This document shows, piece after piece, positions 10,141-24,745 of a stretch of DNA of 64,000 bases (position 1 is its first letter; every line of letters begins with the position of its first letter). Source of the stretch: Methylophilus sp. 5. Its GTDB lineage: Bacteria > Pseudomonadota > Gammaproteobacteria > Burkholderiales > Methylophilaceae. The stretch covers positions 1,488,001 through 1,552,000 of the forward strand of contig NZ_KI911560.1 of assembly GCF_000515275.1 (NCBI RefSeq), in the 5' to 3' direction. The notes under the pieces were generated by a model. The model saw only the letters and a program-made list of their open reading frames with translations, did not search any database and was not told where the DNA came from. The translations under genes and the position numbers were made by a program.

Positions 10141-10833
10141 ATGGCAATCAAAATCGACAAAAAAATCACCGCCTACAAACTGGTGACCGATGAAGACAAA
10201 AAAGCAGCCGAGGCCGCACAAGCGCCTGTCACAAACATTATTCAAATGGGTGAGCCATTGAGCCGCCCAGACATGCTCGTAGGCAACACCTACAAAATCA
10301 AAACGCCGGTGACCGAGCACGCGCTCTACATCACCATCAACGACGTCATTATGAACCAAGGCACGCCACAAGAGCACCGCCGCCCGTTCGAGATCTTCAT
10401 CAACTCCAAAAACATGGAGCACTTCCAGTGGATAGTCGCACTGACCCGCGTCATGTCCGCCGTGTTCCGTAAGGGTGGCGATGTCACCTTTTTGGTGGAG
10501 GAGCTCAAAAGCGTATTCGAGCCTAGCGGCGGCTACTTTAAAAAAGGCGGCAAGTTTGTGCCTAGCTTGGTGGCCGAGATTGGTGAAGTGGTAGAAAAAC
10601 ACCTGCAAGAAATCGGCATGCTGAAAAAACCGGGTTTAGACGAACACCAGCAAAAACTGGTAGAAGAGAAAAAAGCCGAATATCTCGAAAAACACGCCAA
10701 ATCAGGTGACGAATCAAACGACGAGGGCTTTCCAAAAGGCGCGCAGCTTTGTAAAAAGTGTAATACCAAAGCCAGCATCTTAATGGATGGATGTATGACT
10801 TGCTTGAATTGTGGGGATAGTAAGTGCGGCTAA
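10141..10833 (+). CDS. nrdJb: NrdJb, C-terminal subunit of split class II ribonucleotide reductase
   Basis: This 230-residue protein matches the length and layout of Pseudomonas NrdJb: a TSCPD-type domain (residues ~60-150) and a C-terminal Cys-rich tail. The tail has LCKKC, then CMTCLNCGDSKCG at the very end. It is the part that passes electrons from thioredoxin to the active-site disulfide. It needs NrdJa, the upstream gene, to make a complete enzyme. The start follows GGGAGAACAAC. An unrelated restriction-modification operon begins only 19 bp after its stop codon. Confidence 0.85.
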   Translation: MAIKIDKKITAYKLVTDEDKKAAEAAQAPVTNIIQMGEPLSRPDMLVGNTYKIKTPVTEHALYITINDVIMNQGTPQEHRRPFEIFINSKNMEHFQWIVALTRVMSAVFRKGGDVTFLVEELKSVFEPSGGYFKKGGKFVPSLVAEIGEVVEKHLQEIGMLKKPGLDEHQQKLVEEKKAEYLEKHAKSGDESNDEGFPKGAQLCKKCNTKASILMDGCMTCLNCGDSKCG

Positions 10834-10852
10834 TAAGCCTCATAATCCAATA

Positions 10853-12115
10853 ATGGCTTATCAACATAATGAAATATATCAATCTCTAGTTACATCTCTC
10901 TTAAATAACTTTCCAGAGGTTGATACTAGTGAAGTGAATGCGATCGCAACACATTGGTTGCAGTCGCAGTCAACTTCTGTTCCCTTTTTATCACTAGAAA
11001 TCAGAGAGTACTTTCAGAAGATCACTTCTTTTGCTGCTCAAGGTATCACACCGAAAAATGTGATTGAGCAGAAATCTGCACCATACCAATACTCTATCCC
11101 AGTCATTTGGGGAGATATTCCATTTTATAAAAGCGAAATAAATCAAAAATTCACATTTATTGATTTATTTGCTGGTATAGGGGGATTCCGGTTAGCAATG
11201 CAAGCAAGTGGAGGTAAGTGTCTTTTTAGTAGCGAATGGGACTCTTATGCTAAAAGAACTTACGAAGCAAACTTTGGTGAAGTGCCGTTCGGTGATATCA
11301 AAAAAATAGATGAGAAACAGATCCCAGAGCATGATGTCTTATGTGCTGGTTTTCCTTGCCAGCCATTTAGCCTTGCAGGCGTATCAGCTAGGTCATCATT
11401 AAATACTGCACATGGTTTTGCTTGTGAAACACAAGGGACACTTTTTTTTGACATTATTAGAATTGTCAAACAAAAGCGCCCAAAAGTGCTGTTCTTAGAG
11501 AATGTTAAAAATTTAGTAAATCACGATAAAGGAAATACATTTTCGATCATAAAAGAATCAATAGAAGCATTAGGGTATAGCTTTGCTTACAAAGTTTATG
11601 ATGCGAGTCCCCTTGTTCCACAAAAGCGAGAGCGTTGTTACATGGTGTGCTTAAGGGACTCAAAAGAAAAATTTAATTTTCCTGAAATATCAGGACCTAG
11701 CAAGCTTTTAAGGTCCATATTAGATGAAAACGTTGATGATAGCTTCACAATTTCAGATAGATTGTGGCAGGGGCATCAAAGAAGAACCGAAAAGAATTTA
11801 GCTCGAGGAGCTGGCTTTACTGCCTTTTGCGCTGATATTAATAAGCCGTCTAACACATTGGTTGCTAGATATGGGAAAGACGGAAAAGAGTGTTTAATCC
11901 CACAGGAAAATAAAAATCCGAGAATGTTAACTCCAAGAGAGTGCGCAAGGTTACAAGGATTCCCTGAAGAATTTAAGATTGTTGTTGCAAAAACTGCAGC
12001 GTATCGTCAGTTCGGTAACTCTGTGGCTGTGCCAGTAGTAACGAAGATAGCAGAAAAAATAACAGAATATTTGAATGGAACGATGAATGAAGTTTGGGCT
12101 GGCGCAGAGTCGTAA
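10853..12115 (+). CDS. DNA (cytosine-5) methyltransferase of a restriction-modification system
   Basis: The enzyme methylates cytosine at C5 in a specific DNA site and protects the host from the paired nuclease. The 420-residue protein has the family motifs in order: FIDLFAGIGG (AdoMet, residue ~100), GFPCQPFS (catalytic Cys), ENVKNL, PQKRER, a short target-recognition region and FGNSVAVPV. About 95 residues precede motif I, an extension that could be regulatory, as in some methyltransferases that repress their own operon. ATG 10853 is chosen over GTG 10811, which lies inside nrdJb. The coding sequence is clearly richer in AT than its neighbours, suggesting transfer. The recognition site cannot be read from sequence. 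Confidence 0.92.
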   Translation: MAYQHNEIYQSLVTSLLNNFPEVDTSEVNAIATHWLQSQSTSVPFLSLEIREYFQKITSFAAQGITPKNVIEQKSAPYQYSIPVIWGDIPFYKSEINQKFTFIDLFAGIGGFRLAMQASGGKCLFSSEWDSYAKRTYEANFGEVPFGDIKKIDEKQIPEHDVLCAGFPCQPFSLAGVSARSSLNTAHGFACETQGTLFFDIIRIVKQKRPKVLFLENVKNLVNHDKGNTFSIIKESIEALGYSFAYKVYDASPLVPQKRERCYMVCLRDSKEKFNFPEISGPSKLLRSILDENVDDSFTISDRLWQGHQRRTEKNLARGAGFTAFCADINKPSNTLVARYGKDGKECLIPQENKNPRMLTPRECARLQGFPEEFKIVVAKTAAYRQFGNSVAVPVVTKIAEKITEYLNGTMNEVWAGAES

Positions 12116-12923
12116 ATTTGGCACCCTTAAAGGGGCATATTCGTTAGTAACCGAAAGAGAATATTATGACTCCCAAGTAACCTTGACCGATTATGAGGCG
12201 GATTTGATACTGTCTTATTTCGGTGCTGATAACATTCATGTCGGTAATAAGACTTCTGACCCTGTAAAAGCATCGAAGACCTTTAGACTGTTTCCAGAAG
12301 GAAAACCTGTTAATCTGAATTTAGTGTTTCCTAAGCCTCACAAGTCGGAATTGAGGTTGTATCTATCAAAAAAAGCAGGTTTTAAACCAGCTGCTGGTGA
12401 TGTCTGGTTTATTTTTATTAATGATGGTGGTTTATGGTTAGGATCTTTATCCGAGCTTGCGTGGAGATTGGAGTCGTCAGAACTTAAGCAAGATGATTTT
12501 GATGATATTTATCAGGCTTCCGTAAATCAGGGGATTGAAATAAAGACAACAACGCTCAAAGAGCGAGACATATACAAACGAGATAAACGCGTTGCTCTAC
12601 AACGCTTGAACGAGTCAGGCTATATTTGTGAGTTTGATAAGACTCATCAGTTGTTCATCTCAAGATTTTCAAAGAAACCTTATATTGAAATACACCATTT
12701 GATCCCGATGAGTTTGCAAGGGCAATTTAAAACATCCCTGGACACAGTGGAAAATGTATTTTGTTTATGTCCTTACTGTCATAGAGCGGTTCACCATGCT
12801 GAAGATAAGTTGGCTGGTAAAATAGTTGATCAACTCTCCTCTAAAAGAGGTGTCCTGGATAGTTACTCTATTGATAAAAAAGACTTGCTCAGTTACTACG
12901 CATTGGAAGATATTGATAAATAA
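12087..12923 (+). CDS. HNH restriction endonuclease (partner of the C5 methyltransferase)
   Basis: This 278-residue protein ends in an HNH nuclease domain (residues ~195-245): IEIHHLIPM gives the first His, TVENVFCLC the Asn, and CPYCHRAVHH the Cys pair and last His. The N-terminal ~150 residues match no family I recognise, but they contain a region rich in aromatic residues (GDVWFIFINDGGLWLG) that could bind DNA. It overlaps the methyltransferase gene by 29 nt, so the two are co-transcribed. Function as a type II restriction enzyme is inferred from this pairing. Base composition is AT-rich like that of its partner. Confidence 0.82.
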   Translation: MKFGLAQSRKFGTLKGAYSLVTEREYYDSQVTLTDYEADLILSYFGADNIHVGNKTSDPVKASKTFRLFPEGKPVNLNLVFPKPHKSELRLYLSKKAGFKPAAGDVWFIFINDGGLWLGSLSELAWRLESSELKQDDFDDIYQASVNQGIEIKTTTLKERDIYKRDKRVALQRLNESGYICEFDKTHQLFISRFSKKPYIEIHHLIPMSLQGQFKTSLDTVENVFCLCPYCHRAVHHAEDKLAGKIVDQLSSKRGVLDSYSIDKKDLLSYYALEDIDK

Positions 12924-12944: not shown

Positions 12945-13724
12945 TCAATCCTCACAGAAGCCTGACACCAATCCTTGCAAAATCTCCCCCGTTGCCGAGT
13001 TCTGCACAAAAGCTACAACGTTGAGATCACGCTGCTTCCAGCCTGGTTGAAGTTGAATATCATGACTTTCATTTATTTTTCCATCCGCCCCCACCTTAAA
13101 CGGCCCTAACCACTGGCGCACGACATAATCATGGTGCAATAGCTCGCCACGGTTTTCACCTGCATTGACGGTGGATTGCAGGTTGTTTTCTTGTAGCGCG
13201 AGGTAATAGACGAATGGCCCTGCCTCGGCGGTTTTGATGTTTGTGGCTACTTGTACTGACTTAGCTGTTTGTACGTTGACTGTCAGCCGAATCTCGGCTT
13301 TGGCAGGCATGCGATTAATGCTGGCGACTTCACTCTTAAAGCGCGCATCACTTAACCAACTGCGAGTATCCTGACCATTAATCGCGAGTTGCGGGGTATA
13401 CACGCCGCGTGCATGCCCTGTGGTGGCCATTTCACGTTGCCGATTGGCAAATTCTGGGTTGGCAAAGTTGTCTTTCCAGCCGATGTAATCCCAATAATCC
13501 ACATGCAACGCAATCGGCACGATGTTGCCAATGGGTTTACTTTGATTTTTAAGGCGGCTTAACCATTGGTCGGCGGGTGGGCAGCTACTGCAGCCTTCTG
13601 AGGTGTAGAGCTCAACCAAGGCATTGGTTTGCGGGCCACTGACGGCGCTGCATTGCTGTTGTGCGATGGCGTTTGACGCAAACACGATTGCGCACAAAGC
13701 GGTTAGCAGAGATTGTTGTTTCAT
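12945..13724 (-). CDS. DUF1223 secreted thioredoxin-like protein
   Basis: This 259-residue protein has a signal peptide (residues 1-21, ending NAIA-QQ) and the DUF1223 pattern LVELYTSEGCSSCPPADQWL, where CSSC is a thioredoxin-fold redox site. Other family features seen are LHVDYWDYIGW, ARGVYTPQLAINGQ and a C-terminal beta-sandwich part. It is expected in the periplasm. The function is not established; the CxxC site suggests thiol chemistry. It converges on the restriction gene with 21 bp between stops. Confidence 0.85.
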   Translation of the reverse strand: MKQQSLLTALCAIVFASNAIAQQQCSAVSGPQTNALVELYTSEGCSSCPPADQWLSRLKNQSKPIGNIVPIALHVDYWDYIGWKDNFANPEFANRQREMATTGHARGVYTPQLAINGQDTRSWLSDARFKSEVASINRMPAKAEIRLTVNVQTAKSVQVATNIKTAEAGPFVYYLALQENNLQSTVNAGENRGELLHHDYVVRQWLGPFKVGADGKINESHDIQLQPGWKQRDLNVVAFVQNSATGEILQGLVSGFCED

Positions 13725-13833
13725 GACGACACTCCATCAGTTGGCTGGAGTGGATTGGTCGTGGCAGTTGTTGATGCCTTACACGTATTCCTGCTGGTAT
13801 CGAAAGGCGTGAATCACTCGATGCATAACCTAC

Positions 13834-14645: not shown

Positions 14646-14897
14646 TTAGTCCAAAAGTTCATCTCCGGCTTGTGGCGGCAGGCCACCTTGGCGGTTGAGT
14701 AAGTCCAGAGCGGCTTGCACATTGCCATTTTTAGCCCGCTCTACAAAGTATTCAGCTGTTTTCATGGCCGCTAACTTTTCAGCGACAGCGGTGACAATAA
14801 ACTGGTTTATCGAGCTACCATCTTTTTGAGCCACTTGTTCGACTGACTGTTTGAGCGATGTGGGGATGCGCAAAGCGTAATTGCTATTGGTGCCCAT
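14646..14897 (-). CDS. Antitoxin-like protein (ribbon-helix-helix type) of a PIN toxin-antitoxin pair
   Basis: This 83-residue protein contains YALRIPTSLKQSVEQVA and DGSSINQFIVTAVAEKL, the strand and helices expected of an Arc/HicB-like ribbon-helix-helix DNA-binding domain. The C-terminal part (residues ~55-83) would bind the toxin. It overlaps the upstream PIN-domain gene by 14 nt, so toxin precedes antitoxin, the reverse of the more common order. It probably binds the palindrome at the operon start. Family assignment is by motif and context. Confidence 0.75.
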   Translation of the reverse strand: MGTNSNYALRIPTSLKQSVEQVAQKDGSSINQFIVTAVAEKLAAMKTAEYFVERAKNGNVQAALDLLNRQGGLPPQAGDELLD

Positions 14898-15315
14898 GGG
14901 TTAGCTCCTTTAAAAACTGGTTTGGTTGCATGAGTGTGATTTGAAACTTTTGTGGTGCAAGTGCAAAGTCGGCCAAGTTGAAAGTCACAATCGTTTTGGC
15001 ATTTGCATTCATAGCGACCTCTAGCACCATATCATCTGCCGGATCACGCAGCTGTGGCCGCCATAAATAAAAAATCTCTATGGGGTTCATTTTGTCAGCC
15101 AACGTATCCAAAAACTGAATAATTTGTGCTGACGTCAAGCCAATCGCTTTTACTTGCGAGTCTCTCAATAACACTGATTCGTACTCAAGAAATAACGGAA
15201 CGCTCACACAAGGCCGGATTTCGTTACGCAAAACTTTGCGTAAAATTTCAGCTGAAGCGCCGCTTGGGCTGCGTAGCCCTGCAACAATGATATTGGTGTC
15301 CAGAACAAAAGCCAT
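14884..15315 (-). CDS. PIN-domain toxin (putative ribonuclease)
   Basis: This 143-residue PIN-domain protein of the putative toxin-antitoxin type begins MAFVLDTNIIVAGL (first acidic residue). It continues with FLEYESVL (second), DPADDMVLEVAM (third acidic cluster) and AKTIVTFNLADF (last). These acidic residues would bind metal for RNA cleavage. I chose ATG 15315 because it begins directly at the conserved MAFVLDTN. The longer frame from 15354 adds residues not seen in the family. The antitoxin gene follows with a 14-nt overlap. Confidence 0.85.
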   Translation of the reverse strand: MAFVLDTNIIVAGLRSPSGASAEILRKVLRNEIRPCVSVPLFLEYESVLLRDSQVKAIGLTSAQIIQFLDTLADKMNPIEIFYLWRPQLRDPADDMVLEVAMNANAKTIVTFNLADFALAPQKFQITLMQPNQFLKELTHGHQ

Positions 15316-15329
15316 ATTGCATGCAATAT
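15314..15329 (-). promoter_or_regulatory. Perfect 16-bp palindrome at the toxin start, candidate operator
   Basis: ATATTGCATGCAATAT is a perfect 16-bp palindrome overlapping the ATG of the PIN toxin gene. Ribbon-helix-helix antitoxins usually repress their own operon through such sites. Its core TGCATGCA also occurs twice before the second PIN toxin-antitoxin operon. Confidence 0.6.
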
Positions 15330-15393
15330 TACGCCCAAGCCTTTTATATTTCAATGGACTGTGAGAGTAACCTTGAAATGAGACGCTACTAAA

Positions 15394-17630: not shown

Positions 17631-17845
17631 TTTTTTAAGCCTTATCAGCATTTTTTTACAACTATAACTAACTCTGATTGAAATTCAATGTATTCAATCA
17701 CCATAAGCGCATGTGACCTGCTTGCAAAAACTTATTTCAAAATAATTAAAAATAATTGTAAGGCGTTTGTATGCCGCCTGACTAAGGGTTGCAGTACACA
17801 TTTATTGATTTATTTTTTTGTTCATTGTTACTTTTAGGAGATGTT

Positions 17846-18115
17846 ATGAAAACGACTAACAAATTAGCTGCCGCTGCGCTTTTGGGCCTTTTTACTGCTT
17901 CTGTGATGACTGCTACACCAGCATTTGCCGGTGAGGATAGTAAATCTAGCTGTAATGGCAAAGATAACGCCAAGATGGAAAAAGCCAATTGCAAAACAGC
18001 AGATGGCAAAGAGAAGCATGCGTGTAAAGGCAAAAACTCTTGCAAAGGCCAGGGTGGCGATGGCAAAAATGCGTGTAAAGGCCATGGTTCTTGCGCCACT
18101 GACGGTAGCAAGTAA
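17846..18115 (+). CDS. bufA: Bufferin-type metallophore precursor (BufA2-like RiPP)
   Basis: This is an 89-residue precursor with a clear signal peptide (cleavage after AFA-28). The mature peptide is rich in Lys, Gly and Cys, with six Cys (36, 49, 60, 66, 77, 83). The block A-C-K-G-x-x-S-C occurs twice (59-66 and 76-83). In bufferins, an MNIO enzyme converts core cysteines into copper-binding heterocycles and the product buffers copper in the periplasm; this rests on published work on related systems. AGGAG lies just upstream of ATG 17846. The 194-bp upstream gap has TGTAAGG at 17757 inside a GGCG/CGCC inverted repeat, which may be an ECF-type promoter element; that is weak. Confidence 0.82.
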   Translation: MKTTNKLAAAALLGLFTASVMTATPAFAGEDSKSSCNGKDNAKMEKANCKTADGKEKHACKGKNSCKGQGGDGKNACKGHGSCATDGSK

Positions 18116-18140
18116 TTTAGAAATTATCATAACCAGACTC

Positions 18141-18170
18141 AAAAAGGCAGGGGCTTTGTCCTGCTTTTTT
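18141..18170 (+). terminator. Terminator-like hairpin between bufA and bufBC (attenuator candidate)
   Basis: AAAAAGGCAGG pairs with CCTGCTTTTTT (one bulged G) around a short loop, with T-run, in the 70-bp gap between precursor and enzyme genes. The enzyme gene has no evident own promoter, so partial readthrough would give much precursor and little enzyme, as is common in RiPP operons. Confidence 0.6.
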
Positions 18171-18185
18171 GATAGGAATTTTTAA

Positions 18186-19847
18186 ATGCGCCTAGATCAC
18201 TTTTCTCTCGATCCATCTCTCGGCTTTGGGCTGGGGCTGCGGCCACAGCACTATCCGTATATTTTTGAACATCAACCCGAGGTTGACTGGTTTGAAATTA
18301 TCTCTGAGAACTTTATGGACACCGACGGTAAGCCTAAACGCAATCTGGCGCGTATTAAAGAGCGGTATCCGGTGGTGATGCATGGGGTGTCCATGTCGAT
18401 AGGCAGTGTGGACCCGTTGAATTCTGAGTATCTTAAAAAGCTAAAAGCCCTCATTGACTGGGTGAATCCAGCCTGGATTTCTGACCATTTGTGCTGGACG
18501 GGTGTGGCGCATAAAAACACGCACGACTTGCTGCCGCTGCCTTATACCGAAGAGTCACTCAAGCATATTGTGCAGCGTATTCGGCAGGTGCAAGACCGCC
18601 TGGGCCGCAGAATTGCGCTGGAGAATCCGTCGACTTACCTGGAGTTTAAGCACTCTACCATTGCCGAGGCGGAGTTTATGGCCGCCATGGCCAACGAGGC
18701 TGACTGCCATTTGTTACTCGATGTGAATAATGTTTATGTGACTTGTTATAACCATAGGCTGGACCCGCAAACCTACCTCGATGCGCTGCCTTTGGACCGG
18801 GTGATACAGGTACATCTGTCAGGGCATAGCAATAAAGGCAACCATATTGTCGATACCCATGATGACCATGTGATTGATGAGGTGTGGAACCTCTACAAAT
18901 ATGTGGTGCACCGGGCCGGGCGTGTGCCGAATACCATGATTGAGTGGGATGACCGCATCCCCGATTTTCCGGTGTTGTTTGCCGAACTGGATAAAGCCAA
19001 GCTGGCGGCGCAGCACGCCAGCGAGTTTACCCTGCCGCAGCTAGCACAGGCAGGCAGCGTGGTGTTGGACACGCCGGGCATGCCACTACTCGCGGCGCAA
19101 ACCCAGATGCAGCAGGCGGTGACGCTGGGCAGCCGGTTTGATAGCGCGCCCGAGCAATGGATACGCGCCAAACATGCGTTTGCGCCACACGAACAGTTGT
19201 CGGTGTATGCCAATGCTTACCGCTACCGTTTGTATGACGTGGTGGCGGAAGATTATCCGGTGTTGCAGCATTACCTGACCGAGCAAACCTTTGCTGACCT
19301 CATATGGGCATTTGTGGCGGAGGTGTTGCCAGACCACTTTAATATTGGCCGCTTTGCGCTCAAGCTCCCGGCGTTTATTCAAAAAGAATTGCCCAACGAT
19401 GCGTTTGCCTATGCGCTGTGTCAGCTAGAAACCACCGTGGCACAAATGACCGATCCGGCAGAAACCGAAGCGCTGAATGAATCACATCTGCAAGGGCTGA
19501 CGGCAGAAAGTATTTTGGATTTAACGCTGTATCCACGGCAGGCGCTGCGCCTGCTGCAGTTCGATTATCAGGTCAATGCCTATTATCAGGCGGTGATGGA
19601 TGACGAAGTTGATGTGGCGCCACGCAAAGAGGCGGTATATCTGGCGGTGTTCCGTCATGAGGATGTGGTCTGGCGCATGTCGCTGGAGGCTCACGAGTTT
19701 GCGTTGTTATCGCGTATTTTTAGCGGCGCGACCATCGGTGAGGTGCTAGCTGACGTCGATGAGTCCGAAAACCACAACATCACGGCCTATTTTTCAAAAT
19801 GGATGCGCAATGGCTTGCTGGCATCCCAACACGACGAATATTTATAA
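18186..19847 (+). CDS. bufB: Fused bufferin maturation enzyme: MNIO (BufB/DUF692) plus BufC (DUF2063)
   Basis: This single 553-residue protein joins two functions that are usually separate. Residues 1-280 are the multinuclear non-heme iron oxidative enzyme (MNIO, DUF692) that modifies precursor cysteines. Likely metal ligands are His66 (HGVSMSIG), Asp100/His101 (SDHLCW), Glu146 (ALENPS), Asp179/Asn181, His210 and His214 (VHLSGH), the HDDH region ~225, and Glu253 (IEWDD). Residues ~285-553 match the DUF2063/BufC partner ([20 protein letters not shown], then [10 protein letters not shown]), thought to present the precursor. The reading frame is continuous. It follows bufA by 70 bp and precedes the DoxX gene by 13 bp. 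Precursor and enzyme pairing is inferred from order. Confidence 0.88.
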
Positions 19848-19860
19848 AAGGGGAGTACAC

Positions 19861-20313
19861 ATGAACGCACTACTGAACATATTGATCTGGTGGCCAAAAC
19901 GCATCGCTGCGCATTTTGCATGGGCGGGCCCTTTGCTCGCGCGCATCGTGGTTGGCTACACGTTTATGCTCACCGGTTGGGGCAAGCTGACGAATTTGCC
20001 TGCCATGATAGAAAACTTTAGAGGCTGGGGCATCCCTTACCCGGAATTGCTAACGCCATTTGTGTCTGGCTGGGAGTTTTTGGGTGGCTTAGGCTTGATA
20101 CTGGGATTGATGACCAGAGTGCTCGGAGGCGGCCTGGCCGTGGTGATGGTCGTTGCCATTGTCTCGGCCAAGCTGGCGGATATTGACTCTTTAGAAACCC
20201 TGCTCGGCTTTGAAGAGGCGACTTATTTTGCCGTGTTCACCTGGCTGGCAATTAGCGGCGCAGGCAAAGCCTCGCTGGATTATTTTCTGGAGCGCCTGGG
20301 CGCTAAAAAGTGA
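19861..20313 (+). CDS. bufD: DoxX family membrane protein (BufD-like)
   Basis: This is a 150-residue membrane protein of the DoxX family with about four hydrophobic segments. Signature parts include ARIVVGYTFMLTGWGKL, an ENFRGWGIPYPELL loop and GWEFLGGLGLILGL. DoxX-type proteins often end bufferin operons and are proposed to pass electrons for the MNIO step. That role is not proven here. AGGGGAGTACAC precedes the start. Only 13 bp separate it from bufBC. A strong hairpin follows the stop. Confidence 0.88.
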   Translation: MNALLNILIWWPKRIAAHFAWAGPLLARIVVGYTFMLTGWGKLTNLPAMIENFRGWGIPYPELLTPFVSGWEFLGGLGLILGLMTRVLGGGLAVVMVVAIVSAKLADIDSLETLLGFEEATYFAVFTWLAISGAGKASLDYFLERLGAKK

Positions 20314-23965: not shown

Positions 23966-24436
23966 TTAACTGCTTGTTTGCTGCAAGCGTAGCTCAGTGG
24001 CTGGCCCGTTATTCATTGCATAGTCTTGCCATGGGTTGACCACTTGTAGCCCAACGGCCAAAAACGGCGCGGTATCGCGGGTGGCAATGATGTGATGGTT
24101 TGCGACGGCAATGGCGGCGATATAACCATCGGGGACAGGAAAGCCTTTGCCGTGCTGGCGTGCCTGATTAGCCAGTGAAGCGTAGGCTTGGGCGGCAGCG
24201 AGGTCAAACGGCAAAATGCGGTCTTTAAATAGTTGTTGTATGCCGTCAGCCACGGTAGATAACGCTTGTTTTCGTTTGCCATCAGGGAGCGCGGCAATGC
24301 CAAAATGGATTTCTGCCAGGGTGATGCTGGTGAGAAACAAGGTTTCTGCCACTTGAGCGTTAAGCCATTGCATGACTTGCGCGTTGGGCTGAGGGCGCAT
24401 GGTTTCTGAAACAATATTGGTGTCCAGAATAATCAT
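23966..24436 (-). CDS. PIN-domain toxin of VapC/FitB type
   Basis: This 156-residue PIN-domain ribonuclease toxin starts MIILDTNIVSETMRP and has SITLAEIHFGI, FDLAAAQAYASLA, PDGYIAAIAVANHH and ATRDTAPF, which supply the acidic active-site residues typical of FitB. It follows the antitoxin gene by 2 bp on the minus strand, so the order is antitoxin then toxin. The target RNA is not known. Confidence 0.9.
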   Translation of the reverse strand: MIILDTNIVSETMRPQPNAQVMQWLNAQVAETLFLTSITLAEIHFGIAALPDGKRKQALSTVADGIQQLFKDRILPFDLAAAQAYASLANQARQHGKGFPVPDGYIAAIAVANHHIIATRDTAPFLAVGLQVVNPWQDYAMNNGPATELRLQQTSS

Positions 24437-24438
24437 GG

Positions 24439-24693
24439 CTATTCAAACGGCATGGGCTGAGCTGGTGTTTTGGGCTGGTGTTGCAGTATGGCGTCTATCT
24501 CTTGGTCTGTGATGGCTGCGTCACGGCCAAGTTGCAGCATGGCATCCCCGATCAGTAGGCGCGCTTCTGGTTTAACCGCTTGCGCGATGATTTCACGCAC
24601 TTCTGCCTCGGCACTACGGCCGTTTTTAGCAGCTTGCGCCTTGAGTGCCCGATGGATGTCATCGGGTAAATTGCGGACTGTCAGCATGGCCAT
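24439..24693 (-). CDS. FitA-like ribbon-helix-helix antitoxin
   Basis: This 84-residue antitoxin starts MAMLTVRNLPDDIHRALKAQAAKNGRSAEAEVREI, the FitA-type ribbon-helix-helix domain, and ends in a toxin-binding tail (LQHQPKTPAQPMPFE). GGAGG five bases before ATG 24693 decides the start; the ATG at 24723 lacks one. It would neutralise the adjacent VapC-type toxin and repress the operon. Confidence 0.88.
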   Translation of the reverse strand: MAMLTVRNLPDDIHRALKAQAAKNGRSAEAEVREIIAQAVKPEARLLIGDAMLQLGRDAAITDQEIDAILQHQPKTPAQPMPFE

Positions 24694-24718
24694 GATGGCC
24701 TCCATCACAGTAATAGTG

Positions 24719-24745
24719 TGCATGCATTTTATATTTTTGCATGCA
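24719..24745 (-). promoter_or_regulatory. Pair of TGCATGCA palindromes, candidate antitoxin operator
   Basis: Two copies of the palindromic octamer TGCATGCA (24719-24726 and 24738-24745) are separated by an AT-rich 11-bp spacer, just upstream of the antitoxin gene. Two half-site pairs about two helical turns apart suit binding by two ribbon-helix-helix dimers. Confidence 0.6.

Follow-up and report, generated by a model that had tools for sequence, protein, structure and literature searches.

A bufferin-type operon of Methylophilus in which the MNIO maturase and its DUF2063 partner are naturally fused

We describe an operon of Methylophilus sp. 5 in which an MNIO (DUF692) enzyme and its PME1 partner of the DUF2063 type are a single protein, a natural fusion that is conserved at the sequence level, retained by selection, rare, and found mainly in one clade. 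The operon lies in a 64,000-nucleotide stretch of the genome, hereafter the window (contig NZ_KI911560.1, positions 1,488,001 to 1,552,000), from a genome assembled as a single contig of 3,033,021 bases with 99.99% completeness. Our reading-frame check of the window places the genes for the precursor, the MNIO–DUF2063 fusion and a DoxX protein on the plus strand as one unit (Table 1), with coordinates and frames matching the description in a first-pass annotation of this DNA. Taken as a whole, these genes are probably a bufferin (captophorin) operon, with the MNIO maturase and its obligatory PME1 partner united in one polypeptide. The same annotation had called the unit a bufferin operon with fused BufB and BufC; that claim is upheld by the family models, the ligand positions, the compared folds and the pairing of fusion with precursor, with the precursor narrowed to a BufA2-like peptide of the Cys-Lys type, which scores below the cut-off of the formal NCBIfam BufA2 family (NF050166; 32.4 versus 60 bits).

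Table 1. Features of the fused operon and related motif sites, in window coordinates
Feature	Position	Strand	Details
bufA-like precursor gene	17846..18115	+	89 aa, 6 Cys
bufBC (fused MNIO BufB and PME1 partner BufC)	18186..19847	+	553 aa
MNIO domain, TIM barrel	18213..19025	+	about residues 10-280
Linker	19026..19085	+	about residues 281-300
PME1 partner	19086..19826	+	residues 301-547
DoxX-family membrane protein gene	19861..20313	+	PF07681
Promoter-like motif TGTAAG-N17-GACTAA, 5' of the precursor gene	17757..17785	+	
Terminator-like hairpin with T-run, precursor/maturase gap	18139..18172	+	
Second promoter-like motif copy, ~30 bases before the DUF1223 gene	13755..13783	-	
DUF1223 gene, product secreted	12945-13724	-	

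Both domains of the fused frame exceed their Pfam cut-offs, as expected from its first description as one 553-residue MNIO–DUF2063 protein: residues 14-273 match PF05114 (365.8 bits; cut-off 25) and residues 305-398 match PF09836/DUF2063 (43.4 bits; cut-off 27.2). The fusion further passes the NCBIfam BufB equivalog model (NF050167; 375.5 bits versus a cut-off of 310), and the adjacent DoxX protein matches PF07681 (71.1 bits; cut-off 23.6) and falls short of the NCBIfam HvfX model (NF050144; 59.9 bits versus a cut-off of 80). The metal ligands are intact, as had been proposed, in that the ligand-type His, Asp, Glu and Asn residues are identical in all 20 unique fused loci; the invariant positions are H66, H101, E146, D179, N181, N182, H210, D223, H225, E253 and D255, which, beyond those matched to residues of established role, we take to be the MNIO iron ligands. 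The established roles are those of ligands N175, D242 and H244 (PMC13419390), which were matched to the residues of the fusion by eye.

The structure model of the fusion (pLDDT 91.2, pTM 0.88) is of lower confidence in the linker (pLDDT blocks of 86 at residues 281-290 and 68 at 291-300). Its MNIO half resembles 3bww, TglH and MbnB in fold comparison, and its partner half consists of the DUF2063 helices followed by an RRE-like domain with three strands, a helix between the first two of these, and then three helices. In the model, the partner is a DUF2063 domain plus a predicted RRE-type domain, the composition of a PME1 partner. This half resembles NGO1945, a tie to solved structures that we draw from fold comparison, since a sequence search returned no match to such structures up to E 1. 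At the site of Phe250 of FonB, matched by eye, the fusion has an Asp (D256), a residue that has been linked to Cys-Lys substrates (PMC13097082). We dropped this residue as proof of specificity because it discriminates weakly, being found in 18/20 fused enzymes yet also in 78/154 unfused ones.

The first-pass annotation had named a sequencing error joining two genes as the observation that would undo its claim. In most of the unfused loci that we read, the MNIO and partner genes are adjacent or overlapping, so that one indel could join them, in sequencing or in assembly; nevertheless, the evidence leaves such an artefact exceedingly improbable. One open full-length frame of 547-583 residues is found in 10 of the 22 genomes of the genus, the same architecture recurs on many metagenome contigs, and the length of the linker differs by whole codons. 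A database search passed 6,555 proteins, and both Pfam domains are present in each of the 120 listed homologues covered by the domain check. When the window gene is compared with each of the nine other Methylophilus copies, the MNIO half has a dN/dS of 0.04-0.07 and the partner half one of 0.09-0.29, values read against a dS of 0.5-2.2, which is often above 1 and hence often saturated. Raised dN is seen at residues 276-304 in eight of these nine comparisons, with changes that are always in frame. Both halves are under purifying selection, with a fast-evolving linker between them. The rapid evolution and lower model confidence of this linker would also suit a protein that ends up as separate BufB and BufC, through processing or internal re-initiation, making the fusion a mere expression device. 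We regard this as very unlikely: by eye, the ten aligned Methylophilus linkers share no Met codon at a fixed position, and none of the linker Met codons in the window is seen to follow a ribosome site.

A search for DUF692–DUF2063 fusions across genomes, a check proposed along with the original claim, found them to be rare and mainly of one clade. An MNIO is encoded by 113 of the 187 family genomes and, among the matches listed, a frame of more than 500 residues occurs only in the same 10 Methylophilus genomes. In a sample of 398 genomes from the phylum, 145 have a match and, again among the matches listed, a whole-length match free of stops is found only in the genome of the window itself. 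Of 385 genomes from a different class within the phylum, 88 have a match, four of them fused; we take this class to be Alphaproteobacteria, since its genes group in the tree with those of named Alphaproteobacteria MAGs. The orders to which these four genomes belong have the fusion in 1/1, 3/33, 1/4 and 1/10 genomes. Finally, a scan of genome contigs recovered at least 80 loci; of the 80 kept, six are fused (two from Methylophilus, three from Alphaproteobacteria MAGs and one, L068, from a Deltaproteobacteria MAG). The total set holds 20 unique fused loci.

To place these fusions we used a tree of the MNIO domain with 83 rows, of which 38 are fused (the 20 loci and 18 hand-picked from the 120 listed database fusions) and 45 unfused (drawn from the best-scoring of 155, with four unfused rows of a first tree dropped). 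In this tree, 37 of the fused rows lie together on the same side of a branch (support 90/79.7, without a star, with the bootstrap not settled), and all ten rows from Methylophilus make up a starred set that is nested in a larger one, also starred, of 34 fused rows. A constraint that joins the Methylophilus fusions to the four unfused family genes in the tree, chosen after the first tree had been seen, is rejected (p-AU 1e-8). The rejection of this family grouping suggests that Methylophilus likely gained the fusion horizontally. A tree of the partner half (85 rows, made by a quick method) unites the same number of fused rows, 37, at 95.8 and likewise rejects the family grouping (p-AU 0.0003); the agreement of the MNIO and partner trees indicates that the two halves travelled as one gene. 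The remaining fused row, L068, stands apart on a long branch of the MNIO tree. A single origin of all fusions including L068 is not the best tree, yet it is not rejected (p-AU 0.205); L068 is possibly a fusion of independent origin. It is a divergent MNIO–DUF2063 protein accompanied by a Buf2-like precursor with six Cys.

The 89-residue precursor begins with a Sec-like signal (about residues 1-28, ending in AFA, by eye) and has Cys at positions 36, 49, 60, 66, 77 and 83, with Cys-Lys (CK) motifs at 49, 60, 66 and 77. In an alignment of 121 sequences (the query and 120 listed of 227 homologues), Cys 60, 66, 77 and 83 are kept in 118, Cys 49 in 95 and Cys 36 in 85. By motif, it is a predicted member of the Cys-Lys captophorin group described in PMC13097082 and not a formal BufA2. 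Precursor and fusion co-occur: of the 22 genus genomes, the 10 with the fusion have the precursor and the 12 without the fusion lack it, and 23 longest-contig values are common to the database lists, each of 120 entries, of fusions and of precursors. A related precursor is also found at four of the six fused loci of the presumed alphaproteobacterial genomes (L197, L198, L212 and L213), with none recognised at the other two (L196 and L199), and the fused loci of the Alphaproteobacteria MAGs (L054-L056) have more distant Cys-rich precursors. Among Alphaproteobacteria MAGs, the unfused MNIOs closest to the fusions (L063 and L064, for example) are associated with DUF2282-like precursors with four Cys. 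We considered a switch of precursor as the cause of the fusion, or a substrate specific to it, and dropped the idea because precursors very like that of the window occur in Acidobacteriota beside unfused MNIOs; hence, the fusion is not needed for this type of substrate. At one of the fused MAG loci, L054, two Cys-rich precursors with 8 and 12 Cys occur in tandem. The genome of the window also has a second, unfused MNIO operon (L002; contig positions 1782552-1786358), with a sigma-factor-like gene upstream (by eye), a precursor with KEGSC repeats instead of EGKCG, and an MNIO with Ser where Lys-Cys MNIOs have Phe.

By analogy with characterised relatives, we advance the following mechanism for the bufferin operon. 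The precursor would be made with its Sec signal and, in the cytoplasm, the C-terminal DUF2063–RRE half of the fusion would dock on the MNIO barrel and hold it. The iron site would then oxidise Cys residues, most likely those of the Cys-Lys motifs (49, 60, 66 and 77), to 5-thiooxazoles, and the product would be exported to bind Cu(I) in the periplasm, with the DoxX protein possibly assisting. The fusion would fix enzyme and partner at a ratio of 1:1. In the related Lys-Cys system, HvfB needs HvfC for its active mixed-valent iron state, the two bind each other weakly, and an artificial HvfB–HvfC fusion has higher activity than the two proteins co-expressed (PMC13419390). On this analogy, the natural fusion would act as the artificial HvfBC does. 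The two share the joining of the MNIO C-terminus to the partner N-terminus and the same domain order; whereas HvfBC is a laboratory construct without a linker from an EGKCG (Lys-Cys) system (PMC13419390), the present proteins form a clade in nature, have a linker of about 20 residues and go with a Cys-Lys precursor. Given that HvfBC was made artificially in order to study the need of HvfB for its weakly bound partner (PMC13419390), a natural fusion under selection offers an enzyme of fixed stoichiometry, whose natural linkers can be compared, for probing the role of the partner, and lets a Cys-Lys-type system be contrasted with the Lys-Cys one. If our reading is true, it would be the natural counterpart of the engineered fusion.

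The system is otherwise close to Bufferin 2 type operons (BufA2-BufB2-BufC2-DoxX; Cys-Lys captophorins), with which it has in common a Cys-rich Cys-Lys precursor with a putative signal, a BufB-type MNIO, a DUF2063–RRE partner and DoxX. It differs in that MNIO and partner are one protein and in that the precursor scores below the BufA2 cut-off; moreover, the window precursor ends in GSCATDGSK, without the C-terminal Cys...GGK block of many unfused Buf2-like loci. As to precedent, Das et al. (2009; PMC2954202) noted that one of the 216 DUF2063 proteins then in Pfam had an N-terminal DUF692, the same domain order as here, mentioned as an architecture only, its accessible text assigning the fusion no function, lineage or operon. 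A 2025 landscape paper (PMC12452194) lists MNIO–nitroreductase and bufferin fusions, MNIO–DUF2063 not being among those in its accessible text, and the open-access literature that we searched yielded no study of a natural MNIO–PME1 fusion. The architecture has been known in passing since 2009 (PMC2954202), and the natural fusion is a variant of known bufferin-type systems.

Upstream of the precursor, TGTAAG-N17-GACYAA is found with the same spacing in 10/10 fused Methylophilus operons, and it also occurs at 16 of 22 unfused MNIO loci retrieved from the family, each time before a Cys-rich frame. The window has two exact sites where 0.01 are expected, and the 22 genus genomes together have 85 sites versus 23 for the reversed pattern; the window's own genome taken alone shows no enrichment (4 sites versus 3 reversed, two of the four inside reading frames). 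We regard the motif as a putative ECF promoter, since its layout resembles that of Caulobacter sigma-F promoters (PMC3511200). There, two DUF2282-DUF692-DUF2063 operons, of which one includes DoxX, are driven by sigma-F under chromate stress (PMC3511200); the promoter layout before them is similar, but letters and spacing differ (GTAACC-N16-CGAA in Caulobacter versus GTAAGG-N15-CGAC as the commonest form here). On this analogy, the operon probably relies for its transcription on an ECF-type sigma factor that also serves the other buf operons of the family. The exact motif is absent from the loci fetched from other fused genomes (L054-L056, L068, L174-L177, L196-L199, L205, L206, L212 and L213). 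We give about even chances to a scenario in which the fusion constitutes a separate maturase lineage with essentially one origin, outside Methylophilus, from which it entered that genus by horizontal transfer along with its own precursor and came under the family's native ECF-like promoter, the tethered partner keeping the MNIO iron site permanently activated.

The genes downstream of the motif in 30 motif-hit loci are DUF1223-like in six, DoxX-like in four, EF-hand-like in two and bufA in four; nine further sites lie inside a sigma-factor-like frame and five are other. A Pfam check covered a single gene of each of the DUF1223, EF-hand and DoxX types, the other identities being assigned by eye. 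In other Methylophilus genomes, DUF1223-like genes in five further hit loci carry the motif, as do EF-hand-like genes (L226, L234, L169) and DoxX-like genes (L233, L235, L242, L244); the genes ahead of the motif in L235 are presumably MsrP/MsrQ-like. Sites in EGSC-type loci (L002 and its like) were rejected as promoters and read as a coding coincidence inside the sigma-factor-like frame, and L002 has no other motif site; a match at L223, inside a CutA-like frame, was also set aside. If true, the motif would mark an undescribed metal/sulfur-stress regulon of Methylophilaceae comprising bufferin, DUF1223, DoxX and EF-hand proteins.

Such associations bear on the function of the peptide, which, once modified, could instead serve in gold, chromium, oxidative or sulfur stress. 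No copper genes were recognised at the DUF1223-, DoxX- and EF-hand-like genes that follow the motif, nor beside the operon among the window ORFs, a minority of which were scanned with profiles. Caulobacter sigma-F operons respond to chromate (PMC3511200), gold and oxidative stress likewise elicit a response from MNIO–PME1 operons (PMC13097082), and the mmr MNIO genes of Microbulbifer were undetected under copper (PMC12538549). However, thiooxazole products generally bind copper (PMC13097082) and bufferins improve growth under copper stress (PMC12452194); we thus consider this alternative to copper buffering rather unlikely.

The hairpin between the precursor and maturase genes is kept in 9/10 Methylophilus loci, with its T-run in 7/10, and both elements occur at three of the four other fused loci tested. 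A 70-nucleotide fold at the window hairpin has a z-score of -3.7, and, by eye, the alignment shows base changes in the stem that leave its pairing intact. Our terminator-like call is based on this conservation and folding, as a plain consensus terminator scan of the region did no better than chance (4 found, 3.1 expected). By analogy with characterised relatives, such a hairpin 3' of the precursor gene probably lowers transcription of the maturase relative to the precursor. The wider region is flanked by two gene pairs on the minus strand (window 14646-15354 and 23966-24723), which we take to be PIN-domain toxin–antitoxin-like, and the plus-strand genes at 10811-12923, which we take to encode a DNA cytosine methyltransferase and then an HNH-type protein, are probably a restriction–modification pair.
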